Of a stretch of DNA of 35,352 nt, positions 2,433 through 19,374 are shown in pieces. A model generated the notes under the pieces. That model was not told the origin of the DNA. It ran no database searches and worked only from the letters and a program-made list of their open reading frames with translations. This DNA is from Acidobacteriaceae bacterium (GTDB lineage Bacteria; Acidobacteriota; Terriglobia; Terriglobales; Acidobacteriaceae), in assembly GCA_030037635.1 (NCBI GenBank), contig JASHQH010000209.1:1-35352 (forward strand). Direction: 5' to 3'. Both the position numbers and the translations under genes were made by a program. Each line of letters starts with the position of its first letter. The first letter of the stretch is position 1.

Positions 2433-3460
<1,028 letters not shown>

Positions 3461-3461
<1 letters not shown>

Positions 3462-4348
3462 TGCAGCGCTTCCTCGATCCGGCGGTGCTGGCCAGCATCT
3501 CTTCGCTTGATTTGCTGGCCAAGACGGTTGTCGACGGTTTCGTCGCCGGCCTGCATCGTTCGCCCGATTTCGGCTTCAGCCAGGAGTTCGCCGAATACCG
3601 CGCCTATACGCCGGGAGACGACCTGCGGCACGTGGACTGGAATCTCTTTGCGCGCACCGAACGCTGTTATCTCAAGCGCTATCGCGGCGAGACGAACACC
3701 CAGCTCACCATTCTGCTGGACGCCAGCAATTCCATGCAGTACACCTCCGGGCCGCTTTCGAAGATGGATTACGCGCGTTTCATCGCCGCTTCACTCTTCT
3801 ATCTCTCCATTCGCAGCCAGCGCGACGCAGCGGGCTTGATCGTTTTTGATGATGAAGTGCGCGATTATATCCGCCCCTCCACGCGGCCGGGGCAGCTTGC
3901 GCGGTTGTTTACCGCCCTGGAACGCGCCGAGCCGCGGGCGCGCACGAATTTTGCCAAGCCGCTGCGCCACTTTCAGAGTTTTCTGCACCGGCGCGGTATG
4001 GCTATCGTCATTTCCGATTTTTACGAAAGCCCCGACGCCATCGTGCATACCATTGCGCCGCTGCGTTATCACGGCAACGAGGTCGTGCTCTTTCACCTGC
4101 TCGATCCGCAGGAGATTCGGCCTTTGTTGAAGGGCTCGTCGACTCTTATTGATCTCGAAACCGATCAAAAGATCGAGGTCATTCCCGATAATGCGAGGAC
4201 CACCTACTGCGCGAAGATCGATGCGCATATTGAAGAACTGCGCTCGCGTACCCTGGCTGCGGGCATGGATTACCAGCTGCTCGTTACCAACCAACCGCTC
4301 GACATGGCGCTGCGTCAATATCTCACCTTGCGCCAGGCAGGCAACTGA
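3461..4348 (+). CDS. DUF58 domain protein (VWA-like, MoxR partner)
   Basis: A 295-residue soluble protein with the DUF58 signature around residues 48-77: an arginine-rich YTPGDDLRHVDWN stretch followed by AR and LKRYRGE. A VWA-like fold follows, with the metal-site-like segment ILLDASNSM near 85-95 (DxSxS form). DUF58 proteins almost always sit next to MoxR ATPases, as here. It starts on the TGATG overlap with the MoxR gene and ends in the same kind of overlap with the next gene, so the block is a coupled operon. The biochemical role of DUF58 is not established; assembly or control of envelope complexes is a common inference. Confidence 0.95.
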
Positions 4349-6393
4349 TGGGATTTCTGGCTCCATGGTTTCTCGGTGGCTTGCTCGCGCTAGGGGTACC
4401 AGTCTTCGTGCACCTGCTGCGCAGGCATGTTACGCCACCACGGCCAGTCAGCTCGCTCATGTTTTTCGAGCGCGGCACGCAGAGCTCGACCCGTCACCGC
4501 CAACTGCGCTACCTTTTGCTGTTTTCCTTGCGCGCCGCATTAATCCTTCTCCTCGTGCTGGCATTTGCCAATCCATTTCTGCGCCGTGCCAATGCCGATG
4601 TCCACGCGCGGCTCCTCTTTATTGTTGTGGACAATTCTTTCAGCATGCGCGCGGGCACGCGCTTTGCTGACGCCAAGCAACAGGCTCTCGCAGCACTGGC
4701 CGCGAAGCCCGACGAGCAAAAGGCGCAGATCGTGGCGCTCGGCGGGCAGCTTGAGGTTCTCACGCAGCCCATTGCCGACGACGCACAGCTGCGTGCCGCG
4801 CTCGCCAGCATTGAGCCGGGCGATGGCCACGCAAATTTTGGCGAGTTGGGCCGCTACTTTCGCACCCTGAGTGAATCTGTGCGGTCGCCCATCGATCTCG
4901 AACTGTTCAGCGACATGCAGCGTACCGCAATGCCTTCCAACTTCGCCGATATGGTAATGCCTGCGAACGTCAAGCTGGTCCTGCATCCTGTTGCGCGCGG
5001 CAATGCACCGCCGAATTGGACCGTCGAAAGTGTGAATGCGCCTGCTGAGCTCGCCGACCCAAAGGATCCGAAGCGCTCACGCGTCGAGGCGGTCATTGCG
5101 GGTTTTGGAACCCCGGTGGCAGCAAAAAAGATATCGCTCCTTGTAAACGGCAAGGTCATTGCCACGAGAAAGGTGGAGGTTCCGGCCAACGGCCGCGCCA
5201 CCGTCGAGTTCGCCCCGCTCGATGTGGTGTACGGATTTAATCGCTGCCAGGTACGCATCGATGACGGCGACGCATTCCCGCAAGATGACGCCAGCGTTTT
5301 CTCAGTGCAGCGTTCCGATCCGCAACGCGTCCTCTTTGTCCACGCAGCCAACGACACACGTTCAGCGCTCTACTTCGGCGCTGCTCTCGAGGCGGCCTCT
5401 CACGGTGCGTTCCTCTTGCAGTCAGTGGCCGCAGAGCAGGCTACCGATCTCAATCCGTCGCGATTTGCGTTCGTCGTATTGTCCGACACTACTTCTCTCC
5501 CTTCGATCTTTGAACATTCCCTGGCAGCCTACGTGGACAAGGGCGGCAGCGTGCTTATTGCGCTGGGCACATCTGTTGCGCATCACCAGCACATTCCTCT
5601 TTGGGACGGCGAGACGCGCGACGTGCACGACTACGCACGCACGGGCAACTCGGCCACAGTGGTGTCGGTCGATTTTAGTTATCCGCCCCTGGAGCAAGCG
5701 GAGCCTGGGCGCGACAACGGGGGCTGGGCTGAGGTCAAGTTTTTCTATGCTGCAGTCGTCGATCCAGCGCAGGCGCGAGTCGCCGCGCGTCTGAATGATG
5801 GCACGCCCTTGCTGCTTGAAAAGCAAGTGGGCGAAGGACGCATTTTGTTGTTCTCATCGGGTCTTGATAACCTGACCAATGATCTTCCTCTGCATCCCGT
5901 CTTTGTCGCGTTTACCGACCGCATGGCGCACTTTCTTTCGGGCGGCGACCAACTAAGCGGAACGAAACTTGTGGACTCGATTGTGCAACTGCGCGCGGCG
6001 CCCGCGTCCTCTGAAGCCGGCGACGGCGTTGAGGTGATTGATCCCGAAGGCCACCATGCCCTTTCATTGAGCGATGCGCGAAGCGCGCAATTCCTGCGCC
6101 TCGGGCACGCGGGCTTCTATCAGATCCACTTTGCCAACGGTCGCGACGCCGTGATCGGTGTGAATCCTGACCGGCGCGAGTCCGATCTTCAGTCTATGTC
6201 GCCGGATCTGCTTGCGTTGTGGAGCGGAAGTTCGTCCGGAACCACATCGCAAATGGCGAGCGACGCTGCGGATCAACAGAAAAATCGCGACGTGAGCTTC
6301 TGGTGGTGGATTATGCTCATAGCACTGGCCGCCGCAATGGCTGAGACGGTGCTTGCCAGCGGATATATGGGTACACAGCGGGAGGAGGCATGA
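4348..6393 (+). CDS. BatA/VWA-type membrane protein (aerotolerance-operon-like)
   Basis: 681 residues. The N-terminal 80 or so residues match the BatA/aerotolerance N-terminal region: two membrane helices (LAPWFLGGLLALGVPVFVHLL and LLLFSLRAALILLLVLAFANPFL) separated by a basic loop with SSLMFFE. A VWA domain follows, with the metal-site motif DNSFSM near 92-97. The large middle part contains an Ig-like segment and a glutamine-amidotransferase-like region found in such proteins (SGLDNLTNDLPLHPVFVAF). One more membrane helix (WWWIMLIALAAAMAETVLASGY) lies at the C-terminus. It begins at a TGATG overlap with the DUF58 gene and ends in an ATGA overlap with the next gene. Probably an inner-membrane partner of the MoxR/DUF58 pair. 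Confidence 0.92.
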   Translation: MGFLAPWFLGGLLALGVPVFVHLLRRHVTPPRPVSSLMFFERGTQSSTRHRQLRYLLLFSLRAALILLLVLAFANPFLRRANADVHARLLFIVVDNSFSMRAGTRFADAKQQALAALAAKPDEQKAQIVALGGQLEVLTQPIADDAQLRAALASIEPGDGHANFGELGRYFRTLSESVRSPIDLELFSDMQRTAMPSNFADMVMPANVKLVLHPVARGNAPPNWTVESVNAPAELADPKDPKRSRVEAVIAGFGTPVAAKKISLLVNGKVIATRKVEVPANGRATVEFAPLDVVYGFNRCQVRIDDGDAFPQDDASVFSVQRSDPQRVLFVHAANDTRSALYFGAALEAASHGAFLLQSVAAEQATDLNPSRFAFVVLSDTTSLPSIFEHSLAAYVDKGGSVLIALGTSVAHHQHIPLWDGETRDVHDYARTGNSATVVSVDFSYPPLEQAEPGRDNGGWAEVKFFYAAVVDPAQARVAARLNDGTPLLLEKQVGEGRILLFSSGLDNLTNDLPLHPVFVAFTDRMAHFLSGGDQLSGTKLVDSIVQLRAAPASSEAGDGVEVIDPEGHHALSLSDARSAQFLRLGHAGFYQIHFANGRDAVIGVNPDRRESDLQSMSPDLLALWSGSSSGTTSQMASDAADQQKNRDVSFWWWIMLIALAAAMAETVLASGYMGTQREEA

Positions 6394-9300
6394 GCAACTC
6401 GAGCGAGCTCAATTTCTATATTTCGCGGCTGCGGCGGCGGTTACGGCTGGGTGCGTGGCTGCGCGGGGCCGCCGTCTTCGCTGGAACCGCGCTCGCCCTT
6501 ACGCTGGCTCTGGTGCTGGTCCTTAACCAGTTTGCATTTCCTGCGCATAGCGTGACAGTGGCGCGGCTGCTTGTTTTTGTCGCGCTTGCCGCTGCTGTCA
6601 TCTTCGGTCTTGCAGTTCCGCTACAGCGCCTGACCCACGCCCGCGCCGTCCACCGGGCCGAAGCAGCGAATCCTGACCTCGAACAACGGTTGACAACTTT
6701 CCAGGAAACCGTCAGCAAGGACGGCGATCCGTTTCTCGAATTACTCGCTGCCGATACGCTGCCGCGCGCGCAGGAAACTGAACCATCCTCGCTGGTTCCC
6801 GACAATCGTCTCTTCGCTCTCGCTGGCGCAGGACTCGCCTGCCTGTCTGTTCTCGTGTGGATGATCGTCGCCGGGCCCGGGTACATCGGTTACGGCGCCT
6901 CGCTTATCTGGACTGGGCCCAAGAACGGATCAAAGCCGTTCTACAGCATCGCGGTGACGCCGGGAGACATTACCGTGCGCCGCAACAGCGATCAGCTCGT
7001 CACAGCGCGTGTGACCGGCATGAAACCTGACAAGGCGCAACTCTTCGCGCATTTCCAGAGTGCCGAGGGGTGGGAGGCTGTCACGATGCAGGCGGGGCCC
7101 GACTCTGCCGGCGGGGCTGTTTACCAGTTTCTGTTGGCCGGCCTGCCGGAAAACGTAGAGTATTACGCCGCGGCCGGACCATTGGTTTCTCCTCACTACA
7201 AGGTCCACGTGGTTGACCTCCCTTCTGTTAAAGAGATTCGCGTGACGTACCGCTTCCCACAGTGGACCGGGATGAGGCCCGTGAAAGAGGAACACTCCGG
7301 TGACTTGCGCGCAATTGAAGGGACCGACGCGCAAATCGAAGTGGAAATGGATCGGCCTTTGCAGGATGGCCAGCTCGTACTCGACGGCGGACCGACCATC
7401 CATCTTGTTGGCCGTGCGGGCAACACCTACGAGGGCACGATTCGCATGGAGAAAGACGGCGCCTACCATGTGGCCGCGATTGACGAAGGCCAGCCCGTGC
7501 GCCTTTCGGAGGATTACTTCATTGCCACCGACAAGGCCATGCCGCCGGAGATTGCCATCGACCGTCCCGCCGGCGACTATCGCGCCAGCCCCATCGAGGA
7601 GGTCACAGTGGGAGTGAAAGCCGCCGACGAATTCGGGCTCAAGGACCTGCATCTCCACTACTCGGTCAACGGCGGCCCCGATCACGACGTGAGCCTGCTG
7701 AAAACACCCGGCGCAAAAAGCGCGGACGGCACGCACTTGTTGCCTCTCGAAGACTTCAAGCTCGTTCCCGGAGACGTCATCAGCGTTTACGCCACCGCAC
7801 GCGACGGCAACAGTGAGGCGCGCACCGATATCGAGTTCATCCAGGTCGATCCGTTCGAGCGTGAGTTTTCGCAGTCGCAACAGAGCGGCGGGGGAGGCGG
7901 TGGCAGGGGCGGAGAAAATCAGACCGAAATTTCCAAGCGCGAGAAGGAACTGATCGCGGCCACATGGAAACAGCAAAACGACAAAACTGCAACGCCGAAG
8001 GACACAGCCGCGCAGGGGCAGTTCCTTTCCGATGCGCAACGAAAGCTGCGCGACCAGGTGAACGCGCTTTCGGTGCGCATTCAGAGCCGCGACATCTCCG
8101 AGGCCAATGGGGAGTTCACCGACTTCGACAAGGATATGCAAGCTGCAGCCGAGGCCATGGCGCCCGCGGCTGACAAACTGCACATCATGCAGTGGAAAGA
8201 CGCGCTGCCCTTGGAGCAAAAAGCGCTGCAGGCGCTGCTGCGAGCCGAGGCAACCTTCCGGCAGATTGAGGTGGCTTTTGGCCAGCGCGGAGGAGGAGGC
8301 GGCAGCGGCGACAATGCCGGACGCGACTTGGCCAGCCTTTTCGATTTGGAGCTTGACACCGAGAAGAATCAGTACGAAACGGCGCAAAACACATCGCCCG
8401 CCGAACAGCATGAGAAGGACGTGGAAAACGCCCTGGAGAAGCTCGATGCGCTCGCCAAACGACAGGAGGACCTGACCAACCAGCCGCACGATCCGCAGCA
8501 GAGCTTCCAGGAACGCTGGCAGCAGGAAATGTTGCGCCGTGAAGCGGAGCAATTGGAGCGGCAAATGGAACAGATGGCACGGAATGGCCAGCAGGGCCAG
8601 CGGAGTTCGACTGATTCCAGTTCCCAGTCGTCGCCGTCAAAATCGCAGCAAAATTCTGCGTCGCAGGGCAGCTCCGTCGGCCAGAGTGGTTCGCAAAGCC
8701 GAGAGGCCGATGCCCAGGCTTCGAGTGCGGCCTCAGACCAGAACGGCGACGAGCGCGTGCAGCAAGCGCTCAGCCGCTTGCAACAAGCGACCGAGATGAT
8801 GCGGCGTAATGGCGCATCACAGCAGAATTCCGATTCGGCGCGCCAGGCTGCGGATCGCCTGCAAGACGCAGCGAGTCTCTTGGCTGGCACGCAGCAGCAG
8901 CTTGCTTCGGACAAGCTGGGCTCGCTGGCGCGCGAGGCTGCCCGCCTCACGCAGGAGGAGCGCAACCAGGCCGAACGCATTGATAAGCTCGCCAACCAGC
9001 AGAACGATTCCAACGCTGCCGAGTCGAGTTCCGGCGATTCGAAACCTGCTGACTCTGGTTCGGCCGACTCAGACACTCCCGATCTTCAAACCATGATGGC
9101 GCGCATTCGTCAGCGTGACCAGCTTGCCGAGGAGCGCCAGCAGCTCAGCGATGATTTGTCACAGCTGCAGAAAAACGTCCGCGACGCAGCCCGGGAAATG
9201 GCTCCCAATCAACCAGCTGTCTCGCAAAAACTCCGCGATGCACTCACTGAAATGGACGAATCCGATCTCGACAATCATGTGCAGCGAACAGCCGACTGGC

Positions 9301-10166
9301 TCCGTAGCGGAATCAATCCCAATTCCAATGGAACCGAAGGCGAGATCGCGCAAGGACTCGCCACGCTTAGCCAGCAACTGCAACAAGCTGAGACCGCGAT
9401 GGGCCAGGCCAAACCGGGTCAACGCGGCGCGACGGCCGGCGACCAATCGGCCGCACTCGATCAAGTGGAGCGGCTGCGCGGCCAGCTCGAAGCCATGGCG
9501 CGGGCGCAGGGCGTCAATGGCCGTGACGATCAGGGGGGCAAGCGGCGCAACGGGCAAAATGGTCCTGACCGGAACGGTCTGAACGGACAGAGATTCGGCC
9601 AACGGCCCGGAAACAGCGGCGGACTGAGCCGCAATGGCCAGCGCGGCGGCGACGACGCGCAAGTCGGCTCCGGCTCCAGCGACCGAAACACCGGCGTTCT
9701 TCGCAGCGGCTTGAGCGGTGACACGCGCTACGGTGGAGGCGCCACGGATGGCACGGTTTGGGGCAATTTCGACACCGGCAATAACACACCGAACTCCCGC
9801 GGCCGGCAACAACTTGCGCCAACCGATGCCTCAGGCAACCCCGCCGACACCGAACGTACCTTCGAGCAGGGCATGCGCGAGCTGAACCAGCTTCGCCAAT
9901 TGGTCCGCGACGATCCTCAGACCGTAAAAGACGTCGCTGACCTTACGCGGCAGATGCAGCGTCTCGATCCGAGCCGTTTTCCCGGAAACCCCGTCATGGT
10001 GGAGCAGATGCACCAGGAGATACTCAGCTCGGTCGACAAGCTTGAGCTTCAGCTCCAACGTAGCGGCGCCCCGTCCGAGGCGCGCGCGGGCAAACCCGAT
10101 GCTGTTCCCGAGGGGTATCGGGATGCTGTCGCAGATTACTATCGCCGGCTCAGCAAGAATCCATAA
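6390..10166 (+). CDS. Large DUF4175-like membrane protein with coiled-coil, Gln/Asn/Ser/Gly-rich region
   Basis: 1258 residues. Two membrane helices lie near the N-terminus and a third near residues 140-165 (LAGAGLACLSVLVWMIVAG). An extracytoplasmic beta-rich region with Ig-like segments follows to about residue 490, then a glycine run and a very long polar, coiled-coil segment rich in Q, N, S, E and R. The segment near 1040-1120 has repeated NGQ/RNG/GQR motifs. The layout fits the DUF4175-like proteins found at the end of MoxR/DUF58/VWA clusters. Overlap with the VWA gene as ATGA supports co-translation. A role in envelope integrity has been suggested for such clusters, but nothing in this sequence proves it. 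Confidence 0.9.
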   Translation: MSNSSELNFYISRLRRRLRLGAWLRGAAVFAGTALALTLALVLVLNQFAFPAHSVTVARLLVFVALAAAVIFGLAVPLQRLTHARAVHRAEAANPDLEQRLTTFQETVSKDGDPFLELLAADTLPRAQETEPSSLVPDNRLFALAGAGLACLSVLVWMIVAGPGYIGYGASLIWTGPKNGSKPFYSIAVTPGDITVRRNSDQLVTARVTGMKPDKAQLFAHFQSAEGWEAVTMQAGPDSAGGAVYQFLLAGLPENVEYYAAAGPLVSPHYKVHVVDLPSVKEIRVTYRFPQWTGMRPVKEEHSGDLRAIEGTDAQIEVEMDRPLQDGQLVLDGGPTIHLVGRAGNTYEGTIRMEKDGAYHVAAIDEGQPVRLSEDYFIATDKAMPPEIAIDRPAGDYRASPIEEVTVGVKAADEFGLKDLHLHYSVNGGPDHDVSLLKTPGAKSADGTHLLPLEDFKLVPGDVISVYATARDGNSEARTDIEFIQVDPFEREFSQSQQSGGGGGGRGGENQTEISKREKELIAATWKQQNDKTATPKDTAAQGQFLSDAQRKLRDQVNALSVRIQSRDISEANGEFTDFDKDMQAAAEAMAPAADKLHIMQWKDALPLEQKALQALLRAEATFRQIEVAFGQRGGGGGSGDNAGRDLASLFDLELDTEKNQYETAQNTSPAEQHEKDVENALEKLDALAKRQEDLTNQPHDPQQSFQERWQQEMLRREAEQLERQMEQMARNGQQGQRSSTDSSSQSSPSKSQQNSASQGSSVGQSGSQSREADAQASSAASDQNGDERVQQALSRLQQATEMMRRNGASQQNSDSARQAADRLQDAASLLAGTQQQLASDKLGSLAREAARLTQEERNQAERIDKLANQQNDSNAAESSSGDSKPADSGSADSDTPDLQTMMARIRQRDQLAEERQQLSDDLSQLQKNVRDAAREMAPNQPAVSQKLRDALTEMDESDLDNHVQRTADWLRSGINPNSNGTEGEIAQGLATLSQQLQQAETAMGQAKPGQRGATAGDQSAALDQVERLRGQLEAMARAQGVNGRDDQGGKRRNGQNGPDRNGLNGQRFGQRPGNSGGLSRNGQRGGDDAQVGSGSSDRNTGVLRSGLSGDTRYGGGATDGTVWGNFDTGNNTPNSRGRQQLAPTDASGNPADTERTFEQGMRELNQLRQLVRDDPQTVKDVADLTRQMQRLDPSRFPGNPVMVEQMHQEILSSVDKLELQLQRSGAPSEARAGKPDAVPEGYRDAVADYYRRLSKNP

Positions 10167-10774: not shown

Positions 10775-13700
10775 CTAGTGCGATTTCCCCGTCACGGTTT
10801 GATTCGCCGACTGCGGCCCGGGCAGCGGCGCCTGCTTGGGCACGGGCACACGTGCATCGCGGGCAAAGTACCATCGTGCCGCAATTGAGAAGGTGTTCAC
10901 CAGCAGGCTCTGGTTGCTCACTTGGTTTGCATAGAAGAACGCGGAGTAGGTTGGTGCGAACGAAAGGTTTCCAATTGATGGCAGCACCAGTGACACGTTC
11001 AACGGAATAGCGTATTCCGTCTGCGTCGGCAACTCGGCAGCCGGTGGGCGTCCGAAATAATAATCCCCTTGTGAATCCGTAACCAAGCGGATCTGTTTTT
11101 GTTCGCTGCCTTTGCCGTAAATATGGTTTTGGAGATGGAGATCCCAGTAGTAGCCGGGTGTATGCAGGGTTTGTACGGCAGGCTTGCCGACGACAGTTGT
11201 TGTGTCGTTGAGGATAAGCGCGATGGCCGGAGTGCCGTACTTCGCGCTGCCGAAACAGGTTTGCAGCGTGACCGTCGCGAAGACGGGGCAGGTTTTTTGG
11301 TTGCTGCCCGTCTGCAGGGTCAGAGCTGACAAGTTGCCATTCGAGATGTTGAATTCCATGCCCGTCTCAACGTAGCTTCCGACCGTGGGCAGGTATCTGG
11401 AGGCGACTTTGGAGTGGCTCTGCCCAAACTCCTCCCTGAAACCGGCGCGGTCGGTCCAGGCGCTGATGCGCGGAAGCTGGACGGTGAGCTCGCCAGAAGG
11501 CACTTGGCCAGTCGTGTAGGTAAGGAACAAATAGGGTGTATCGATTTCAAGTTGATATTGATGCGGAGTGAAAACCAACAGACTCCGCGGGAGCGTCTGC
11601 ACGCTGCGCACTTCATCTGAGCCGCCGTTGGCGAGGCGGACCTGCAAGAAGCCGCCTTCGGTCAGATTGTTCAGCGGATAGGTCGCGTTGATAGGCTTGT
11701 TGGTTAGATTGCCGATGACCGCCCGGTCGTAGGAAAAGGCGCTCTGCACTCCCACGGAAAATGGCGGAAGCCAACCCTTGCCGGTTCCCGGGCCTGAAAC
11801 GTTGGCCAAAACCCGGCTGCCCATTTCCAGGTCGAGAGACTGTTGGTCAGGTGCTGAGGCGCGCGCGTCCGACACCCCTTGGAAAAGCTCGACGAACTGG
11901 TTTCCCCCCACCGCCTCGCGTGAATTGAAGCTGGCGATCACCTTGGCGAAATCAACCTGATAAAGCTCCCTCTGCTGAAACTTTTCGTTATCTGCCGTGA
12001 TGACCGTTTCCACCGGTTTCGTTGTCTGGCTGGTGCCATTGAACAGATCGAGCGCGAGGCTGGGCTGAGCATCGCCCTGAGCAGTGAGATTGTTTTGCAG
12101 GAAATGCGACAGCGGATTACTGACAAATCGCTCCGTCACCTTGTGCATGTCAGTCGGCAGCGCTTGCAGCGTTCCGTAGATAGCCTTGTCCTGGGCTAAC
12201 TGGTCGGTTGTCAGCAGCCAGTAGTAGGCATCGTCGCTAATTGGTGTCCCGTCGATGCAATAGGTTGGCTGTGCACTCGATGCTCCTTTGCAATGGGGAT
12301 CGACGGGAATCCAAAGTGGCTCGTCGTTCTGGCTCACCTGGGTCAAATTGCTCAGGGTGGACTGCACGATGCCATAGGAAATCAACCACTGCCCTGTAGG
12401 GCCGGTATCAGCCAGTTGAGCCTGCTGTGCCATGTTGCTTTCCGACAAGCCGAGCATCTCTTCCAGCTCTTTTCCCGTCACCGCGACGTATTCCAGGTAG
12501 TCTCCCTTCCAAAAGATGCGATCGAGAGCTGAGCGCAGCTCGCAAAGCTGGAATTTTTCCTCGTTGGTCTTTTCGTCTCTGCCCTCCTGGGTCTTCTCGC
12601 CGGCGCACATCTTGTAATCGGTGTATCCCTTGCCGATCGCGTCCAGTTCCACATCTCGGCTCTGCAGCAGAACCACGTCGGGCTTTGGCGGCGACGATTT
12701 CTGCAGGTCCCGCAGAAGCGCAAACTCGGCTTTCTGCTTGCTTTCCGTGTCCTGTCCCATCGCTGTCTGCGACGTCGCGTTCTGAACCGTCGCTGAGGGA
12801 TTTGGCTGCTGGGTTGCAGCATTTTTGAGCCTCTCGACCAATTTGTAGAGAAGAGAGATGGTGGTGTCGGACTTACCTACATCAGGAATCTTGAAATTGT
12901 CATCGTGTTGGTTCGCCAGCGAAAAGCTGTTATCGGCCTCCGTGCTTAGTGTCAGCAGTGAGACTGCTCCGGGATAGCTGCCGGTTTGGGAAGAGTAGCT
13001 GGTATTTGGAGTCACCACGAAAGCCGGGTGAGAGGCTTGCGCCCCATCCTGAGCCTGATAGGTCAGCGTGATGTGCGGCGTGCCGTAGCCCGACTCGACT
13101 TCGCTCAACACTACATCCACCTGTTGGCTCGCATTGGCCAGCTTAAGTTGCTCCCGGACGCGTTCCGACAGAATCTCCGCCTCGGTGTGAGGCATTTGTG
13201 CCATCACCACGACCCGCTTGAAGGGTTTTTCCTCGAGTAATCTCGCGCCGCGGACAATGGCTTCGGTTGCCTCCATCGGATCCGCAACCAGAACTTCCTG
13301 CTCGCCGCCGGATTTGCCGGCTTTTCTGCGATCGCCGCAGGTTGAAAAGTCAGTTTGGGCGCCGGGCTTGCCGGCAATACACAGATCAAGATTGGTTTCC
13401 GATACTGCCTTCATGGTATCTTCGCCGACAACGCCGACAATCAGGACATGGGTGCCGTCTCCCGCGTCCGCCACCGTGTAGCCGACATCCTTCTCTTCAC
13501 GAGCAATGGTGCGAAGCAGGCCATTGATGGCCGCAACTCTTGCCTCTTCGCTGAGCAGAAAACAAGCGCCTGGGCTGGGTGCTCCGTTGTCAACGGTGCA
13601 CGGACCGGGTTTGCTGCTGTCTTGCAGGCTTTCGCCCAGGCTTCCGAGAATTTCGACCATCCGCTTCGCGTAGATGCACAAATCAGCTGCGTTCGCCTTG

Positions 13701-14926
13701 TCGACATCATTGTCAAAGGTTGCATCGGATTGGCACGCCGGCAATGCGGAAAAAGTCTTTTCGAGGCCGTTCACCATATCCAAAGTCAGATCCGGGCTGC
13801 CGCTCTCTCGCGTCCCCATTCCAAATTTGCCGGGCAAAGCCGGAAGCTTGTGCTGCTTCGAAGAATCATCCGATGCCCACGTTTGGGGCGAACCCCACGC
13901 GGCCTGCAAGATAGCAATCTCGTCGCTCACCAGTGCATTCCGTCCCGCAGCTTTTCCAGCGGCCGACATTGATGTGCCGGTAGCCAGTTCACGAATTGCT
14001 TCCAATGCCGTAGTGCTCCTGCTGAGCCGGTCAAGGCGATTGAGCCAGTCGAACGGCTCCGGCTCATTGCCATCGCAGCGAAACTGTCCTTGCGAAAATG
14101 GATTCTTGCTGAACAGGAGTGGGCACGGGCCGCTGCCCCCGTTCGCATTGCCGGCCGAGTCACCTCCCGCTGCACCCTTGGCCTTCATTGAAATGCGAAG
14201 ATTGGCACCGAGCAAATAAAGCTGGTTTTCCGGATTGTTGATAAGCTTCCGCTCTGCCGGCGCATCTGCTTTACGTTCCTGCAGAACTTCTTCCCACGCA
14301 CACTTCTGTGCGTCTTCGTCTTTGCTTTTACCCGGGATCACATTCTTGCAATGCTCAGAAATCTCAACCTTAGGCGGAGCGGCATTCGGGTCGGCATGCG
14401 ATACCTGCGCGACGAGTACAGCTGCTTCTCTCAACCAGCGTGCCGTGTACATAAAGTCCTGGCTTCCTGGAACCACGGCTCGAAAGCCCGCATGCATGAG
14501 GAAGTTGAGTACGTTATCGCACTGCGCTTCATTGGGGACGCGATCGTCGTCCTTATAGAGGCTTTCCGGCCTGCCCTCGCCGCTTGGCGTTTCTTTGGGG
14601 GGCTGATCGCAGGGCTTTGCGCCCTGTAACTGGAGCGATGCGCCGAACTCCGGTCCGAAGTTGTCGCCCATCCCCAGCAGCAACCTGCTGGAATCCTGTT
14701 GGCGAACCTTAAGGAAACTCTGCACTGGAGGCAGGACGGCGTTGGTTGGGTCCTCGCCGTACTCCATTCGGTAAAAGCCCATCAGGCTGCCGCTGTAATC
14801 GATCTTGATCTCAGATGCCTGCGTCTGGTTGGTCTGCCCACGGACGACGCAAGCATAGAAGGGCGAAAGAGCCAACGTCAGGGACACGATTGGGAAAGAA
14901 CGGCAGAGCGGGTGGGACGCGCGCAT
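10775..14926 (-). CDS. Exported protein: degenerate 5'-nucleotidase-like module plus predicted C-terminal outer-membrane barrel
   Basis: 1383 residues starting MRASHPL after a GGAGGA ribosome site, with a signal peptide that ends around ACVVRGQ. The N-terminal half follows the order of the UshA/5'-nucleotidase metallophosphoesterase fold: LLLGMGDN near 83-90 in place of the DAGDN segment, VPGSQDF where GNHEFD is expected, and a VDVVLSE segment where the GGHTH-type motif belongs. Several metal-binding His/Asn ligands are therefore missing. A region resembling the 5'-nucleotidase C-terminal domain follows (KPDVVLLQSRDVELDAIG, GDYLEYVAVTGKELEEML, YCIDGTPISDDAYYWLLTTDQL). The last 300-400 residues are aromatic, amphipathic beta strands ending with FSIAARWYFARD, suggestive of a barrel. 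It lies 228 bp downstream of the TrkA/RyR gene on the same strand. Whether it retains catalysis is doubtful; it may bind a ligand instead. Confidence 0.72.
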   Translation of the reverse strand: MRASHPLCRSFPIVSLTLALSPFYACVVRGQTNQTQASEIKIDYSGSLMGFYRMEYGEDPTNAVLPPVQSFLKVRQQDSSRLLLGMGDNFGPEFGASLQLQGAKPCDQPPKETPSGEGRPESLYKDDDRVPNEAQCDNVLNFLMHAGFRAVVPGSQDFMYTARWLREAAVLVAQVSHADPNAAPPKVEISEHCKNVIPGKSKDEDAQKCAWEEVLQERKADAPAERKLINNPENQLYLLGANLRISMKAKGAAGGDSAGNANGGSGPCPLLFSKNPFSQGQFRCDGNEPEPFDWLNRLDRLSRSTTALEAIRELATGTSMSAAGKAAGRNALVSDEIAILQAAWGSPQTWASDDSSKQHKLPALPGKFGMGTRESGSPDLTLDMVNGLEKTFSALPACQSDATFDNDVDKANAADLCIYAKRMVEILGSLGESLQDSSKPGPCTVDNGAPSPGACFLLSEEARVAAINGLLRTIAREEKDVGYTVADAGDGTHVLIVGVVGEDTMKAVSETNLDLCIAGKPGAQTDFSTCGDRRKAGKSGGEQEVLVADPMEATEAIVRGARLLEEKPFKRVVVMAQMPHTEAEILSERVREQLKLANASQQVDVVLSEVESGYGTPHITLTYQAQDGAQASHPAFVVTPNTSYSSQTGSYPGAVSLLTLSTEADNSFSLANQHDDNFKIPDVGKSDTTISLLYKLVERLKNAATQQPNPSATVQNATSQTAMGQDTESKQKAEFALLRDLQKSSPPKPDVVLLQSRDVELDAIGKGYTDYKMCAGEKTQEGRDEKTNEEKFQLCELRSALDRIFWKGDYLEYVAVTGKELEEMLGLSESNMAQQAQLADTGPTGQWLISYGIVQSTLSNLTQVSQNDEPLWIPVDPHCKGASSAQPTYCIDGTPISDDAYYWLLTTDQLAQDKAIYGTLQALPTDMHKVTERFVSNPLSHFLQNNLTAQGDAQPSLALDLFNGTSQTTKPVETVITADNEKFQQRELYQVDFAKVIASFNSREAVGGNQFVELFQGVSDARASAPDQQSLDLEMGSRVLANVSGPGTGKGWLPPFSVGVQSAFSYDRAVIGNLTNKPINATYPLNNLTEGGFLQVRLANGGSDEVRSVQTLPRSLLVFTPHQYQLEIDTPYLFLTYTTGQVPSGELTVQLPRISAWTDRAGFREEFGQSHSKVASRYLPTVGSYVETGMEFNISNGNLSALTLQTGSNQKTCPVFATVTLQTCFGSAKYGTPAIALILNDTTTVVGKPAVQTLHTPGYYWDLHLQNHIYGKGSEQKQIRLVTDSQGDYYFGRPPAAELPTQTEYAIPLNVSLVLPSIGNLSFAPTYSAFFYANQVSNQSLLVNTFSIAARWYFARDARVPVPKQAPLPGPQSANQTVTGKSH

Positions 14927-15154
14927 AGATTCCTCCGTATCGGGTAGCGGGGGATGGAAGTAAATTTGAATCCATCATCCTTGAATGGGCAAGCCGCGTC
15001 AATTACTTTGAGATTCCCGGTTCACATTTTGCGCCACCTCCCGGTGCCAGCAGGCTCCAAGTCAAGCGTTCCGCAGGCGCAACGGAGCCTGAGAGGCGCG
15101 TTTCTCCGACGACCAAAGCCCGCCCAAGCGAGGCGTCGCGGCAACTTTTTGTGT

Positions 15155-17422
15155 TTACTTCTGGAGTGCGACCTGATTTCTCTTCGCCCATCCATTGGCC
15201 TGCTCGATGACGGCCGGACGTTCTTCCGGCTCGTCTGCTTTCGCCTTTCTTCGCGGCCCAAACTCGGGCGGTAGCTCGTCCGAAACCAGCCACACACTCC
15301 GCGAAGGCAGCGTCAAGGCATGTCCGGCGGCGCGAATCGCGTCGTGATTGTCCAGGTCGACGATCAGATTGTAGTGCGCAGCCCGAGCGTCGGCGGTCGA
15401 CCGATCGATCTCTTTCGCCGCTTCGGCCAGCCACTTGCCGTAGAGGCACATAGGGCGCACCGGGAGCATCTCGATCCCAAGCTCTGCCATGATTTGCGGA
15501 AGTTTGGCCACTTCTTCTCGGTTGTAATCCTTGTTTCCAGCTGCCAATTCCTTTTTATTGTCCGGCGAGTCGGTCCAGTCGTACAGGCTGGGGTCGTCCC
15601 GCCACGCCGAACGTGGTCGATTCTCAACCATCCGCCGCTCGATCTGGTAACGGCGGTGCTCGAGCCGGGCCAGGGTTTCAATTTGCGCTGCGCTGAGGGG
15701 GGCCACGGCCGGTGCCTTGGTCGTGGCTACCTCCGGTGATTCGGGGTCCTGGACGTACATCCCGGCAAGTTGCATCAGCAGTGGTGAGTGGTCGGCGCGC
15801 CAACGGTTAGACATCTTGAAAATCTCCGGCAGCCTGGGCCACTCCACGTCGGCTTTTGGGTTCTTGTCTTCCTTTGGCCGGCTCAGGTATTCGGCATGAA
15901 GCGCCAGCGCAAACTTATCCAGCTTCGATTCCAGCAGCACGCCAGGACTGAGCGTTTCTTCGAGTGTCCCGAAGATTTGTACGCGGTCGCCGAAGCTGGA
16001 CTTGTTTTCCAAGTCGCGCACGAGCTCACCCAGACGGCGGTAGTACTCGAGGCGCACATAGACAGGCACGTGAAGATGGGAGTTGCGATCGAGGATCGAA
16101 CGCACTTCCAACGCCGCGCTCAGGCTCACCTGGTCGTCGCCCAGCGCCACGGCGATGCCCAGTAACGGTTTCGCCTCCTCGAGTTTCGGTTCCAGCACTC
16201 GGGTCAGGTCAGGCGACCCCTCCGATACGTTTGCCTTAACAAACTCCACCGATGCCCACTCCAGGGCTGCCGGGTTGGTGACCGAGAATCGCTCCTTTGC
16301 TTTGTCGGCCTTCTCGTCGAAAACAATAATCCTGAGTTTCTGCCCCAGCGCAACCGGGCTCGAACGGATTAGGTGCAACGCGATCTCACGGCCATACTGT
16401 CCGAATCCGATGAGCACAAACGTCTGCGCGTCAAACTCCGGGCTGGGCAGCAAGCGCAGGGGCTTGATCAGCAAGCGCGCCGCGTCGGTAAAGGGGTTGA
16501 ACAGACGCAGGTCGACGCCGGCTGAGTCGGTCAGGCTCTTGTCGCTGCCCAGCAGCCGTTTGTGCATCCAGTCATTGCGCAACTGAGCCAGCACCCGGAT
16601 GCTTCCCGGGGCCAAATTGGAGGTCCTCTTATAAATGTCCTTGATCTGCAGAGCGATGTCGATGTTTTCGCTGTCGGAGCCGGTGCTGATAATGGCCTGT
16701 TGCGCATGGTGGATACCCGCTGCCTTGAGCACTTGCGGACTCTTGGCGTCGCCCTGCACCACCAGCACTCCGCTCTGCTCGCAGGTGGCGGCGGCAGGCG
16801 AGTCATCATGCAAATCAACCACAACAATACGTTGACCGGCCTTGCGGCCCGGATCCTTCTTGCGCAGGTTCTCCACCACCTGCATGCCCACGTCGCCGAT
16901 ACCGCAGACCACGGTGTGATTCGACTTGTGCCGCGCCATGACAGTGCGAAAATTCTTCCTGACTCCGACGAGAAACACCGCTGCCGCACCAAAAAGCGCA
17001 ACTCCCGGCACCAGGAACTGAGCAGCAATCAGTTGCCAGGGAGCTTCGCCGGGTTGATAGAGGTCGTAAAACCGCAGTAGCCCGAACGAACTGAAAACAC
17101 AGCGGATCGCTTCCATGCCGGATGATGACCATTTCTGTAGGTCCAGCGACCTTATCTGCGCCTCGAGTGCCCGTTTATCCGCGCCCGGTAAGTCCTCCTG
17201 GGCCTCCAGCGACGTTTTCTCCGCGTACAGCCGGCCGTTATGCCTACGCACGCTTTGAGTAAGTGCCTTGACAGGATTCTCGCTTGCTCCGTCGAATGTT
17301 CCATTGGGCATCCCCGGCTCAGGGCTGAAGTCACTGCCCGCCCTCGCGAATCCCCACCATCCGAATCCGAAGGCGATAATAGCGCCGGCGATGAAACCCC
17401 AGAATTGAGCGTGCTTTGCCAT
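15155..17422 (-). CDS. Two-TM protein with two TrkA-N (RCK-like) domains and a RyR domain
   Basis: 755 residues from the preferred ATG at 17422, which has GGAGG five bases upstream; a longer frame to 17497 would overlap the previous gene and lacks this site. Layout: TM helix 5-25, an extracytoplasmic stretch with a helical charged segment, TM helix about 130-154, then a TrkA-N Rossmann domain (GIGDVG 174-179, acidic VVDLHDD end of the second strand), a second TrkA-N domain (GFGQYG 339-344), and a RyR-type domain around 575-655 (LARLEHRRYQIERR, then a DW/DYNREEV stretch and LPQIMAELGIEML). A short unassigned tail follows. There is no TVGYG-type selectivity filter between the helices, so it is not an ordinary potassium channel. 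TrkA-N domains bind NAD(H) or other nucleotides; bacterial RyR domains are thought to sense ligands. It starts 29 bp after the SLOG/SLATT gene, so the two form an operon. Confidence 0.88.
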   Translation of the reverse strand: MAKHAQFWGFIAGAIIAFGFGWWGFARAGSDFSPEPGMPNGTFDGASENPVKALTQSVRRHNGRLYAEKTSLEAQEDLPGADKRALEAQIRSLDLQKWSSSGMEAIRCVFSSFGLLRFYDLYQPGEAPWQLIAAQFLVPGVALFGAAAVFLVGVRKNFRTVMARHKSNHTVVCGIGDVGMQVVENLRKKDPGRKAGQRIVVVDLHDDSPAAATCEQSGVLVVQGDAKSPQVLKAAGIHHAQQAIISTGSDSENIDIALQIKDIYKRTSNLAPGSIRVLAQLRNDWMHKRLLGSDKSLTDSAGVDLRLFNPFTDAARLLIKPLRLLPSPEFDAQTFVLIGFGQYGREIALHLIRSSPVALGQKLRIIVFDEKADKAKERFSVTNPAALEWASVEFVKANVSEGSPDLTRVLEPKLEEAKPLLGIAVALGDDQVSLSAALEVRSILDRNSHLHVPVYVRLEYYRRLGELVRDLENKSSFGDRVQIFGTLEETLSPGVLLESKLDKFALALHAEYLSRPKEDKNPKADVEWPRLPEIFKMSNRWRADHSPLLMQLAGMYVQDPESPEVATTKAPAVAPLSAAQIETLARLEHRRYQIERRMVENRPRSAWRDDPSLYDWTDSPDNKKELAAGNKDYNREEVAKLPQIMAELGIEMLPVRPMCLYGKWLAEAAKEIDRSTADARAAHYNLIVDLDNHDAIRAAGHALTLPSRSVWLVSDELPPEFGPRRKAKADEPEERPAVIEQANGWAKRNQVALQK

Positions 17423-17451
17423 TTTCCTCCACGAATCCCCGAGCAGGTCGA

Positions 17452-19374
17452 CTAGCCGGGTAGGTTTAACTTCCGGTAGCGAAAGACAAAGCTCCAATCC
17501 ATGGTTTCAGCAATCATGGTTGCTGCAATGCGTTGCGCTGCCCGGCGCAAAGCCGCTGAACCTTCGGGTACGCTTTTGATTGCCTCATCGAGATCGTTGG
17601 CGCGGAGGGACTCCAGCTCGTCGGTCATCGCTGAAGAACGGTCCGCGCTGCGTTCAAACTCCCCTTGGTTGGCGATGGCATAAAATGCCGCGCCCAAAGC
17701 GGGCGGAACAACAGCCAATAACACCAGCCACGAAACCAGCCACGGCGAATCCTCCTTGCTGATGGGCAGTGGCACCAGGTGTGCAACGCAGGCCAACAGC
17801 GTGATCACGAAGAGGCTCGTCCCGATGAGATGCACGCGATGGCTGAGCTTGTGCATGATCTTGTGGTTGGTTTTGTGGTAGTCAATCTGTCCAGCCAGGA
17901 TCTTATCCATCATTCCCCCTATCGCCAAGAGATAGCGCGGTCTGGCGTTCGCCGGTGCCAATCCAAGATCGCGGGCAATGACGCGAAACATGCCGTCTAC
18001 CCACGATCGGTGCGGGTTGGATCCAGTGTGGGCGGGAGGACGCGGTGAAGGCAGTGGGCACCCCAGCGGAGCGAGGTAACAGTATTGCCGAAGAAGCTCT
18101 GCCAATTGCCTGTAGTTAAGCCAGCGCTCATGCCAGCGCCTTCGTTGTCCATGAAACGTAATCGATAAGATCGCGACAATCAGCCCCAATTCCAACCATG
18201 TCGGGATTTTGTACCCTATTTCCATGCGGAACGAAAAACGGAGAATGTAGCCGATGATCGGCACCAGCACGGCGCAGGCGCTCAACAGGCTTGTGCCCAT
18301 CGAAGTGCTGCGCAGCAGTCCTGCATAATTCACCGACAAGCCGTCGGCCCAGGCATAATGCGGGCAAAGTCTGTCCAGCAGATAACGGCGCGTCGCTTCC
18401 GGCAAGTCGGGCGTTTTGGGGATCGTGCTCTCCCACTCGCTCCGCGCGGCCGCCTCGAAATTCTTGACTCGCCATGATCCCCTGCGAAATCTGCCGCGGG
18501 CAATCAGATCGCGAAAGATGCGGAAGATGCGCCCGGCATCGAATCTTGGTTGTCTCTCCGCGCAATAGGCTTGGCTCAGCATGCGAGACTCCTCGTCTTC
18601 GCCGGTGATTTGCGTGAACCGAGAGGCAAGCAACTCGCCCATCATTTTCAGCGGGTATTGCTTTCGCTCCCCCTTTTCGTTCATCACCAGGATGCGCGGC
18701 TCCATTGTTTCAGCAGCATGCAACCACACCACCGGCACATTCTGCGCGATGGCCTCGTCGATCATCTGCGTGGTCCCGCCTCGCCCGGCTGCCGGCTTCC
18801 CATCCCAGACGGCGATCAGGAAATCGGATTGCTCGATCACTATCCGGCCCACACCTTCATACGCTGCTTCTTCCGCGTCGCGCCGCCCGTCGGCCTCGAA
18901 AACCGCTGACGCCCGCGCCAGCAGCGCATAGAACTCCTCGCGCGACCCCTCGCTCGCAAAATCGCGGCTGTACTCATCGGCATCGAACGGCAGCGGGCAT
19001 TGCAAGTCCGCGCCCATAGCCAGCCCCGCCCGGGCCACAATCCGGTCTGAACCCTCCGCGATCGGCGAAATGATGCGCAGCAGCGGCGGCCCGGGCGCGT
19101 GCAGCAATGGGTCGCGCGCATGGGCCGCCAGCGCGGCAATCGCTTTCAGAACCTCTGTGCACTGCCGCGGCAAATCGCAGGTGACCTCGGGCGACAGCCG
19201 GTTGGGCCGATGGCCCGTCACTCCGACTTGCACTACCTGGCGTGGCCGCGGCGGCGAGGTGGATGGGTGGGTTCCCATGGCGCGCAGATTCGACGATGCT
19301 CCCAATTCTGCGTTGAGCATATCACGCCATAACTTGCGGCCTGTTGGCTGGTTAGAGCCCGATCTGGCACGCAC
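17452..19374 (-). CDS. SLOG-domain protein fused to a SLATT-like multi-TM region
   Basis: 640 residues from a GTG at 19374 preceded by GGAG at suitable spacing. The SLOG (Rossmann-like) domain spans about 46-230: VGVTGHR (50-56), ISPIAEGSDRIVA (102-114), GADLQCPLPFDADEYSRDF (121-139) and SDFLIAVWDGKPAAGRGGTT (183-202), all typical of this family. The C-terminal part has two pairs of membrane helices (about 357-379 and 391-408; 515-533 and 544-566). After the first pair comes a conserved-looking RWHERWLNYRQLAELLRQ stretch, as in SLATT modules, and after the second pair a helical tail ending WSFVFRYRKLNLPG. SLOG domains are thought to bind or process nucleotide-derived ligands and SLATT proteins to act as membrane effectors in conflict systems. 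It is the first gene of the SLOG, TrkA/RyR, nucleotidase-barrel group. Confidence 0.85.
   Translation of the reverse strand: MRARSGSNQPTGRKLWRDMLNAELGASSNLRAMGTHPSTSPPRPRQVVQVGVTGHRPNRLSPEVTCDLPRQCTEVLKAIAALAAHARDPLLHAPGPPLLRIISPIAEGSDRIVARAGLAMGADLQCPLPFDADEYSRDFASEGSREEFYALLARASAVFEADGRRDAEEAAYEGVGRIVIEQSDFLIAVWDGKPAAGRGGTTQMIDEAIAQNVPVVWLHAAETMEPRILVMNEKGERKQYPLKMMGELLASRFTQITGEDEESRMLSQAYCAERQPRFDAGRIFRIFRDLIARGRFRRGSWRVKNFEAAARSEWESTIPKTPDLPEATRRYLLDRLCPHYAWADGLSVNYAGLLRSTSMGTSLLSACAVLVPIIGYILRFSFRMEIGYKIPTWLELGLIVAILSITFHGQRRRWHERWLNYRQLAELLRQYCYLAPLGCPLPSPRPPAHTGSNPHRSWVDGMFRVIARDLGLAPANARPRYLLAIGGMMDKILAGQIDYHKTNHKIMHKLSHRVHLIGTSLFVITLLACVAHLVPLPISKEDSPWLVSWLVLLAVVPPALGAAFYAIANQGEFERSADRSSAMTDELESLRANDLDEAIKSVPEGSAALRRAAQRIAATMIAETMDWSFVFRYRKLNLPG

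Follow-up and report, generated by a model that had tools for sequence, protein, structure and literature searches.

What does a bacterium gain from genes that join nucleotide-sensor domains of the cell interior to a predicted outer-membrane barrel? The question is raised by three consecutive minus-strand genes (gene 1, 19278–17452; gene 2, 17422–15155; gene 3, 14926–10775) in a 35,352 nt stretch of soil acidobacterial DNA (Acidobacteriaceae bacterium, assembly GCA_030037635.1, contig JASHQH010000209.1), hereafter the window. Gene 1 encodes a SLOG domain followed by a predicted four-helix SLATT region, gene 2 a two-transmembrane (two-TM) protein with an RCK (TrkA-N) and a diverged RyR-type domain, and gene 3 a predicted exported pseudo-5'-nucleotidase with a C-terminal barrel. 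Together they make up a genuine module that recurs and belongs to a familiar type of signalling system. Its third partner is new within the literature searched, TIR genes of the Thoeris type are linked to it, and the permeability mechanism that we propose would be its likeliest function.

Recurrence of the three genes

In a survey of 80 genomes from the genus, eight carry gene 3 (E up to 1e-10), eight carry gene 2 (E up to 1e-30) and seven have a close gene 1. All three are found in seven genomes (G000, G204, G207, G226, G260, G262 and G263) with order and strand conserved; 71 carry neither gene 2 nor gene 3, and 14 have distant SLOG matches only. The probability of this three-gene overlap by chance is 2e-8, uncorrected for kinship, in a set of which 38 genomes miss 90% completeness, contamination under 5% or both. 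The initial annotation had proposed a three-gene unit, and the homologues do adjoin one another in the same order in these seven genomes. Among seven named loci, six carry all three genes in order on one strand and L005 carries gene 2 alone; L001–L004 correspond by coordinates to G226, G262, G204 and G207, so that the locus set overlaps with the genome survey. In protein database clusters, with equal length of the longest listed contigs as a proxy for the same contig, the counts were 25 for genes 3 and 2, 16 for genes 2 and 1, 24 for genes 3 and 1 and nine for all three.

Outside the genus the picture is sparse. A sample of 200 genomes drawn evenly from the family, eight of them from the genus, contained no close gene 2 outside the window and a clear gene 3 solely in G153 (38%), to which a profile search added distant gene 3 relatives in G139 and G134. 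Among 72,556 plasmids, gene 1 gave three distant matches (25–32% identity), and the distant gene 2 relative P0222, used as a query in place of gene 2 itself, gave none. Within the searched genomes the triple is confined to one genus. The recurrence in scattered taxa that would have supported the initial annotation is not borne out for it; only SLOG with RyR is scattered. The three genes are an accessory module of one acidobacterial genus, present in 7 of 80 species.

Whether gene 3 belongs to the module can be questioned. Genes 1 and 2 might be a SLOG–SLATT/RyR signalling pair of known kind, with gene 3 an unrelated surface protein travelling alongside. A gap of 228 bp (14927–15154) sets gene 3 apart, compared with 29 bp between genes 1 and 2; G201 has gene 3 without its partners, as do, with more distant copies, G153, G139 and G134; and a gene 3 homologue accompanies none of the 26 RyR regions found across the phylum (see below). 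Seven of the eight gene 3 carriers of the genus nevertheless have adjoining same-strand genes 1 and 2, including those with an inserted TIR gene, and we regard an unrelated gene 3 as unlikely.

Domain architecture of genes 1 and 2

The start codons of genes 1 and 2 were inferred via homologues, giving gene 1 (17452–19278) 608 aa from ATG 19278 within an open reading frame (ORF) open from GTG 19374. Its SLOG fold and TM helices are predictions. In the structure model, a SLOG Rossmann fold occupies 18613–19239 (model residues 14–222), with YpsA and DprA as its nearest structures. The first TM pair predicted from hydropathy (18076–18312) coincides with the SLATT/DUF4231 region (DUF4231 residues 355–433); the DUF4231 match scores 25.2 bits in P0003, the gene 1 product, against a gathering cut-off of 24.7, and recurs at E up to 10 in all 18 members of the gene 1 family A2. 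NCBIfam SLATT_1 scores 34.5 bits on gene 1, under its cut-off of 41, and also matches the second TM half in the relatives at L028 and L032, again below cut-off. The second pair predicted from hydropathy (17671–17829) is likely a second SLATT-type unit. By its domain content, the SLOG domain would bind a nucleotide or ADP-ribose-type signal and the SLATT region would serve as a pore.

Gene 2 (15155–17422, ATG 17422) begins with a two-TM region (16961–17404) predicted from alignments and from two hydropathy peaks, the first of them (TM1) weak (1.48). Downstream lies the RCK domain, clear as TrkA_N at 16628–16912 (PF02254, E 2.8e-18, ORF residues 196–290); a second Rossmann domain is weak. The family profile matches the RCK structures KtrA (6.3e-12), GsuK and MthK, and MthK alignments begin at residues 144–157, ahead of the RCK domain. 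It also matches RyR1 and RyR3 (RyR1 chimera 6uhi, E 1.7e-7). Used as a single sequence, the gene 2 product P0002 retrieved RCK and had no RyR/PF02026 match; PF02026 does match the relatives P0207, P0209, P0211, P0217 and P0222. In having TM helices followed by RCK Rossmann domains, gene 2 resembles channels of the MthK/GsuK type, from which it differs by its added RyR-type domain and the missing TVGYG-type filter. Identity as a K+ channel was rejected, no filter having been found between TM1 and TM2.

The RyR-type domain (15473–15679) was compared in 47 aligned rows, 23 from the window's clade and 24 from others. The comparison was made at positions of the phage protein RyDEP, whose catalytic residues, according to passages of PMC13232231, are H75 and D117, with W78 stacking against adenine. 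The H75 equivalent is His in 46 of the 47 rows. In the window's clade the W78 equivalent is Tyr, Phe (three rows) or Cys (one row), and the D117 equivalent is Asn in 18 rows, Glu in four and Lys in one. The other 24 rows keep Trp throughout and Asp in 22, the two with Asn (L071 and L077) being RCK–RyR proteins. P0002 reads H (H614), Y (Y617), D and N at H75, W78, H100 and D117, the alignment of the H100 column being uncertain. Because the H75 equivalent is kept and the other two positions are changed, the domain in the window's clade likely binds a ligand without cleaving it, or binds another ligand. Gene 2 resembles the RyDEP described in that source in its diverged domain of the RyR (PF02026) type and in the kept histidine, and differs by its fusion to a two-TM RCK protein and by the Tyr and Asn; a RyDEP-like glycosidase is unlikely, since the D117 position is Asn.

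Gene 3, a pseudo-nucleotidase with a predicted barrel

Gene 3 (10775–14926) encodes 1383 aa with a hydrophobic N-terminus (residues 10–28) and is predicted to be an exported, outer-membrane protein. A protein search that scored 7987 candidates gave 103 clusters with E no higher than 0.001, gene 3 among them. A structure model of residues 466–1383, built from 51 sequences (pLDDT 69.7, pTM 0.48), contains a 5'-nucleotidase fold of the UshA type, comprising the second half of the nucleotidase-like domain with a 5_nucleotid_C-like domain (12047–13519), and then a predicted outer-membrane barrel (10844–11974) of about 12 long strands with a helix ahead of the first. The first half of the metallophosphatase-like domain (14432–14809) lies outside the modelled part and was assigned from motifs compared by eye with Escherichia coli UshA. 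Foldseek placed EstA first (2.3e-7), with the 5'-nucleotidase 3ive (3.5e-7) and the autotransporter barrels of BrkA, NalP and EspP among the matches that followed. VIA, in whose lists a missing fold carries no evidential weight, scored the barrel against OmpG (13.0), CymA (12.9), EspP (12.0) and Tsx (11.1), and the nucleotidase part against UshA (10.8; rmsd 9.7 over 301) and NadN (10.4). Alignment of the gene 3 family (A3) with UshA by hhalign gave no real match, so that the nucleotidase fold is claimed from the model alone.

The active-site motifs are degenerate. By eye, UshA DHHG, GNHEF, THMG and GGHSQ correspond to GSLMG, GSQDF or GREDF, AQMP and SEAES in the gene 3 family, and GDNF is kept; the window copy reads GMGDNFGPEFG, and GSQDFM where UshA has GNHEFD. 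No A3 row has a His, again by eye, at positions matching UshA H43, H117, H217 and H252 (20 of 21 rows for the first motif), which we take to be catalytic or metal-site histidines; a His three residues past H217 (H580 of the gene 3 product P0001, also in UshA) persists in 18 of 21 rows. An active secreted 5'-nucleotidase was therefore rejected. Gene 3 accordingly resembles UshA and NadN in its nucleotidase-like fold and EstA-type autotransporters in its barrel-like C-terminus, and differs from them in the lost histidines, in uniting both parts in one protein and in a tail after the barrel. This 27-residue tail (10775–10858), with its core GP..S..QT kept in 21 A3 rows, is an odd ending for a barrel protein.

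The Foldseek ranking raises the alternative of an autotransporter like EstA: the nucleotidase-like part of gene 3 would be its passenger, with the role of adhesin, decoy or receptor, and genes 1 and 2 would respond to the bound ligand. The helix before the first strand would suit such a protein, as would the lowest identity of the three gene products in five of seven locus pairs. In the VIA comparison, however, OmpG and CymA outscore the autotransporters and Tsx is level with them, and the chain runs past its last strand into the conserved tail; we consider this alternative quite improbable. Gene 3 homologues without adjoining genes 1 and 2 were also seen at L034, L036 and L037, the L034 copy preceding a sensor-kinase gene. 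Profiles and models together bear out the domains that the initial annotation had named for the three products (SLOG, SLATT, TrkA-N, a diverged RyR type, and the predicted nucleotidase and barrel).

TIR genes and the link to Thoeris

At the site equivalent to the 228-bp gap, two of the seven modules (L002 and L004) carry an antisense TIR gene. For both products (L002:7789–9441 and L004:12149–13585) the best PADLOC model is ThsB (7.3e-20 and 3.5e-20, respectively), and they are 74% identical over 231 residues, with differing C-terminal parts. The C-terminal repeats are of BNR/YCF48 type in L002; the corresponding part of L004 is unnamed. L001 has another TIR gene at 2201–2929 (TIR_2, 2e-21) with a weaker match to ThsB. 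In the 80 genomes, relatives of the TIR half of the L004 protein at no less than 52% identity occur only in G207 (the protein itself), G262 (two) and G209, which has no module. No TIR turned up among 18 window proteins scanned.

The module resembles Thoeris (ThsB TIR with ThsA Sir2–SLOG) in its SLOG fold and in the ThsB-like TIR of two modules, and probably in its nucleotide-signal logic. It differs by the SLOG–SLATT fusion, the added RCK–RyR protein and the predicted outer-membrane protein. Outright membership of Thoeris was rejected, as PADLOC recognises no effector and TIR lies within two of seven modules only.

SLOG and RyR across the phylum

Of 396 genomes surveyed across the phylum, 14 have a PF02026 match; the window's own genome is not one of them, because its RyR domain is too diverged. 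A SLOG or SLOG–SLATT profile match is present in seven of 26 regions around these matches, each of the seven from a different one of the 14 genomes, and in L088 the SLOG match falls within the RyR ORF itself. None of 20 control regions by dnaG has such a match (Fisher p 0.012), the controls coming from the window's genus and from other genomes than the RyR regions, of which L070 and L071 overlap and L073 and L074 belong to one genus. At L083, an RyR protein with weak AAA/nSTAND matches lies 9 bp before a SLOG–SLATT gene. The membership of the module in a SLOG/SLATT/RyR nucleotide-signal network, as first suggested from the window, holds.

Other architectures were observed at these loci. RelA_SpoT and RyR are combined in single proteins of 837 and 844 aa at L077:13493–16006 and L085:7895–10429 (both minus strand). 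A weak LSDAT_prok (SLOG) match lies between their domains, and these proteins could possibly be signal makers with their own sensor. At RyR or SLOG–SLATT loci, three large proteins (L083:10116–14867, L077:103–4572 and L087:754–3525) look alike by eye in an N-terminus of the FISSTF type, and the L083 copy matches a PADLOC HEAT-ARM model. At L028:7303–9946 a distant SLOG–SLATT gene has as neighbours a gene for a patatin-like phospholipase and one of 535 aa that has no name; L030 and L031 have similar-sized genes in the same layout.

Insertion sites, flanks and divergence

Modules L002–L004 share a dnaG/pirin site; a distant SLOG–SLATT of another genus (L026:4581–9074) also lies by a dnaG gene, and a HipA-type gene (L003:6581–7924, plus strand) stands directly upstream of the L003 module. 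In L002–L004 the flanking pirin, primase and sigma-70 proteins are 84–97% identical, compared with 66–78% for gene 1, 68–90% for gene 2 and 54–83% for gene 3, and other ORFs compared at the site, which may be mis-called, are 51–84% identical. At the DNA level the upstream flank is mostly 82–87% identical, with one stretch of about 640 bases at 69–70%; genes 1 and 2 are 70–79% and gene 3 with the downstream flank 65–82% identical. Because the downstream flank (75–82%) diverges about as much as the module (65–79%), these figures do not establish that the module evolves faster.

Gene relationships are incongruent. Gene 1 of L003 is nearest to L002 (78%; L004, 67%), whereas its genes 2 and 3 are nearest to L004 (90 and 83%; L002, 68 and 54%), and gene 1 of L004 is nearest to L001 (82%), a pattern that fits allele exchange. 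The dnaG-upstream region is variable in 20 chosen genomes of the 69 in the genus with a dnaG match; these 20 regions gave no module or TIR profile matches, one of the 20 genomes bearing the module elsewhere.

In the window, a 216-aa ORF with a transpeptidase domain and a malic enzyme gene lie upstream of the module and a convergent MoxR/DUF58/BatA/DUF4175 cluster (2433–10166) downstream. A single shared mobile site that includes the window was rejected, the malic enzyme occurring in 58 of 80 genomes and the BatA-type gene in just seven. In none of the seven named loci does either gene come within 10 kb of gene 2 (three flanks being shorter), and three malic-enzyme neighbourhoods from module-free genomes (L095–L097) contain no other queried window gene. 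Promoter and terminator scans of the locus stayed near chance level and yielded no transcript map.

These ordinary metabolic and envelope neighbours speak for a nucleotide-regulated ion or envelope homeostasis function, rather than a role in conflict. Gene 2 would then supply an RCK channel that senses NAD(H) or nucleotides, with gene 1 as its partner, and gene 3 would bind or scavenge nucleotides in the outer membrane. RCK domains are classic sensors of NAD, ADP and ATP in K+ systems. Gating of TrkA by ADP and ATP is reported in passages of PMC6987127, and the nucleotidase fold of gene 3 is close to UshA and NadN. This alternative gains slightly because the DNA comparison weakens the argument from fast divergence, which costs the signal-gated reading set out below a little. 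Patchy presence in 7 of 80 species, the TIR gene within two modules, the reassortment of gene 1, the recurrence of SLOG, TIR and RyR together elsewhere and the missing catalytic-motif histidines of gene 3 all stand against homeostasis, which we judge somewhat unlikely.

A proposed signal-gated permeability switch

We tentatively favour, at a little short of an even chance, a Thoeris-like permeability switch gated by an ADP-ribose-type signal and provided with an outer-membrane or surface arm. This reading combines the module evidence with the published binding of 2'/3' cyclic ADP-ribose (cADPR) by phage RyR domains and the published prediction of SLATT effectors, as far as the passages cited below describe them. 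It starts from the three genes with the domains that profiles match, the recurrence of their order, the ThsB-like TIR gene in two of seven modules, the SLOG–RyR linkage elsewhere in the phylum and the conserved lack of His in the gene 3 motifs, to which the predicted SLOG fold, TM helices, and nucleotidase and barrel folds are added. On phage or another attack, a TIR enzyme, encoded in cis in some genomes and elsewhere in others, would make the signal. The SLOG–SLATT and two-TM RCK–RyR proteins would bind it through SLOG and RyR, and the SLATT and two-TM regions would conduct and open the inner membrane. Gene 3 would bind a nucleotide without cleavage and so report the signal or loosen the outer membrane. 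That a ligand is sensed inside and gated outside, as initially suggested, is still something we infer. A stricter version, an immune module of Thoeris-like type in which the RyR domain is a cADPR-type receptor on the RCK protein and acts with a SLOG–SLATT pore and a surface barrel so that one TIR signal opens both membranes, is possible and rather doubtful.

Several observations weigh against the permeability switch. Five of the seven modules lack a TIR gene between their genes, and a search at E 1e-12 found no relative of the L004-type TIR in the genome from which the window comes. With E allowed up to 1, no PADLOC family matched any of the three gene products, and no Thoeris effector was recognised among them. 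By eye, a TVGYG-type filter is absent between TM1 and TM2 in 17 rows of alignment A1 and 13 hydropathy rows. W78, D117 and probably H100 are altered in gene 2, and its ligand may differ. The barrel model, limited to residues 466–1383, is of moderate confidence. The linkage is not absolute, G201 having gene 3 alone and G254 gene 2 alone. The defence islands that would have supported the initial annotation are not borne out: a Pfam scan found no known defence genes among the 15 other window ORFs and PADLOC gave no match for the three proteins, the flanks having had no systematic defence scan. The site upstream of dnaG that three modules occupy is variable, which does not make it a defence island. 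The argument for conflict from fast divergence was downgraded to weak, the named flanks being slow-evolving housekeeping genes.

Relation to known systems and significance

Burroughs et al. (2015, NAR) are said to have named the SLOG/SLATT/RyR nucleotide-centred network, and that paper may already show SLOG–SLATT paired with TrkA–RyR. SLATT is predicted, in passages of PMC7159879 and PMC9503650, to be an ADP-ribose-regulated pore effector, a predicted role that the module shares along with its SLOG and SLATT domains; the same passages name no RyR, TrkA or gene 3 partner. Phage RyR domains bind 2'/3'cADPR, as stated in passages of PMC13232231. Searches of the open-licence PMC literature on SLOG/SLATT/RyR/TrkA combinations and nucleotidase-barrel proteins brought up no paper recognised as describing the triple. 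As far as that literature was searched, SLOG with SLATT and RyR is of a known kind and the pseudo-nucleotidase barrel is a new partner.

If the proposed mechanism is correct, RyR domains would also serve the host, as receptors on a membrane protein, soon after the report of phage RyR proteins that bind 2'/3'cADPR, and the module would offer a simple bacterial system for testing cADPR-type gating of RyR-bearing channels. The conserved His-less nucleotidase barrel would be a first outer-membrane partner of the network as far as the open-licence PMC literature was searched. In its stricter version, with a cADPR-type receptor on the RCK protein, the module would be a prokaryotic counterpart of cADPR–RyR channel signalling.

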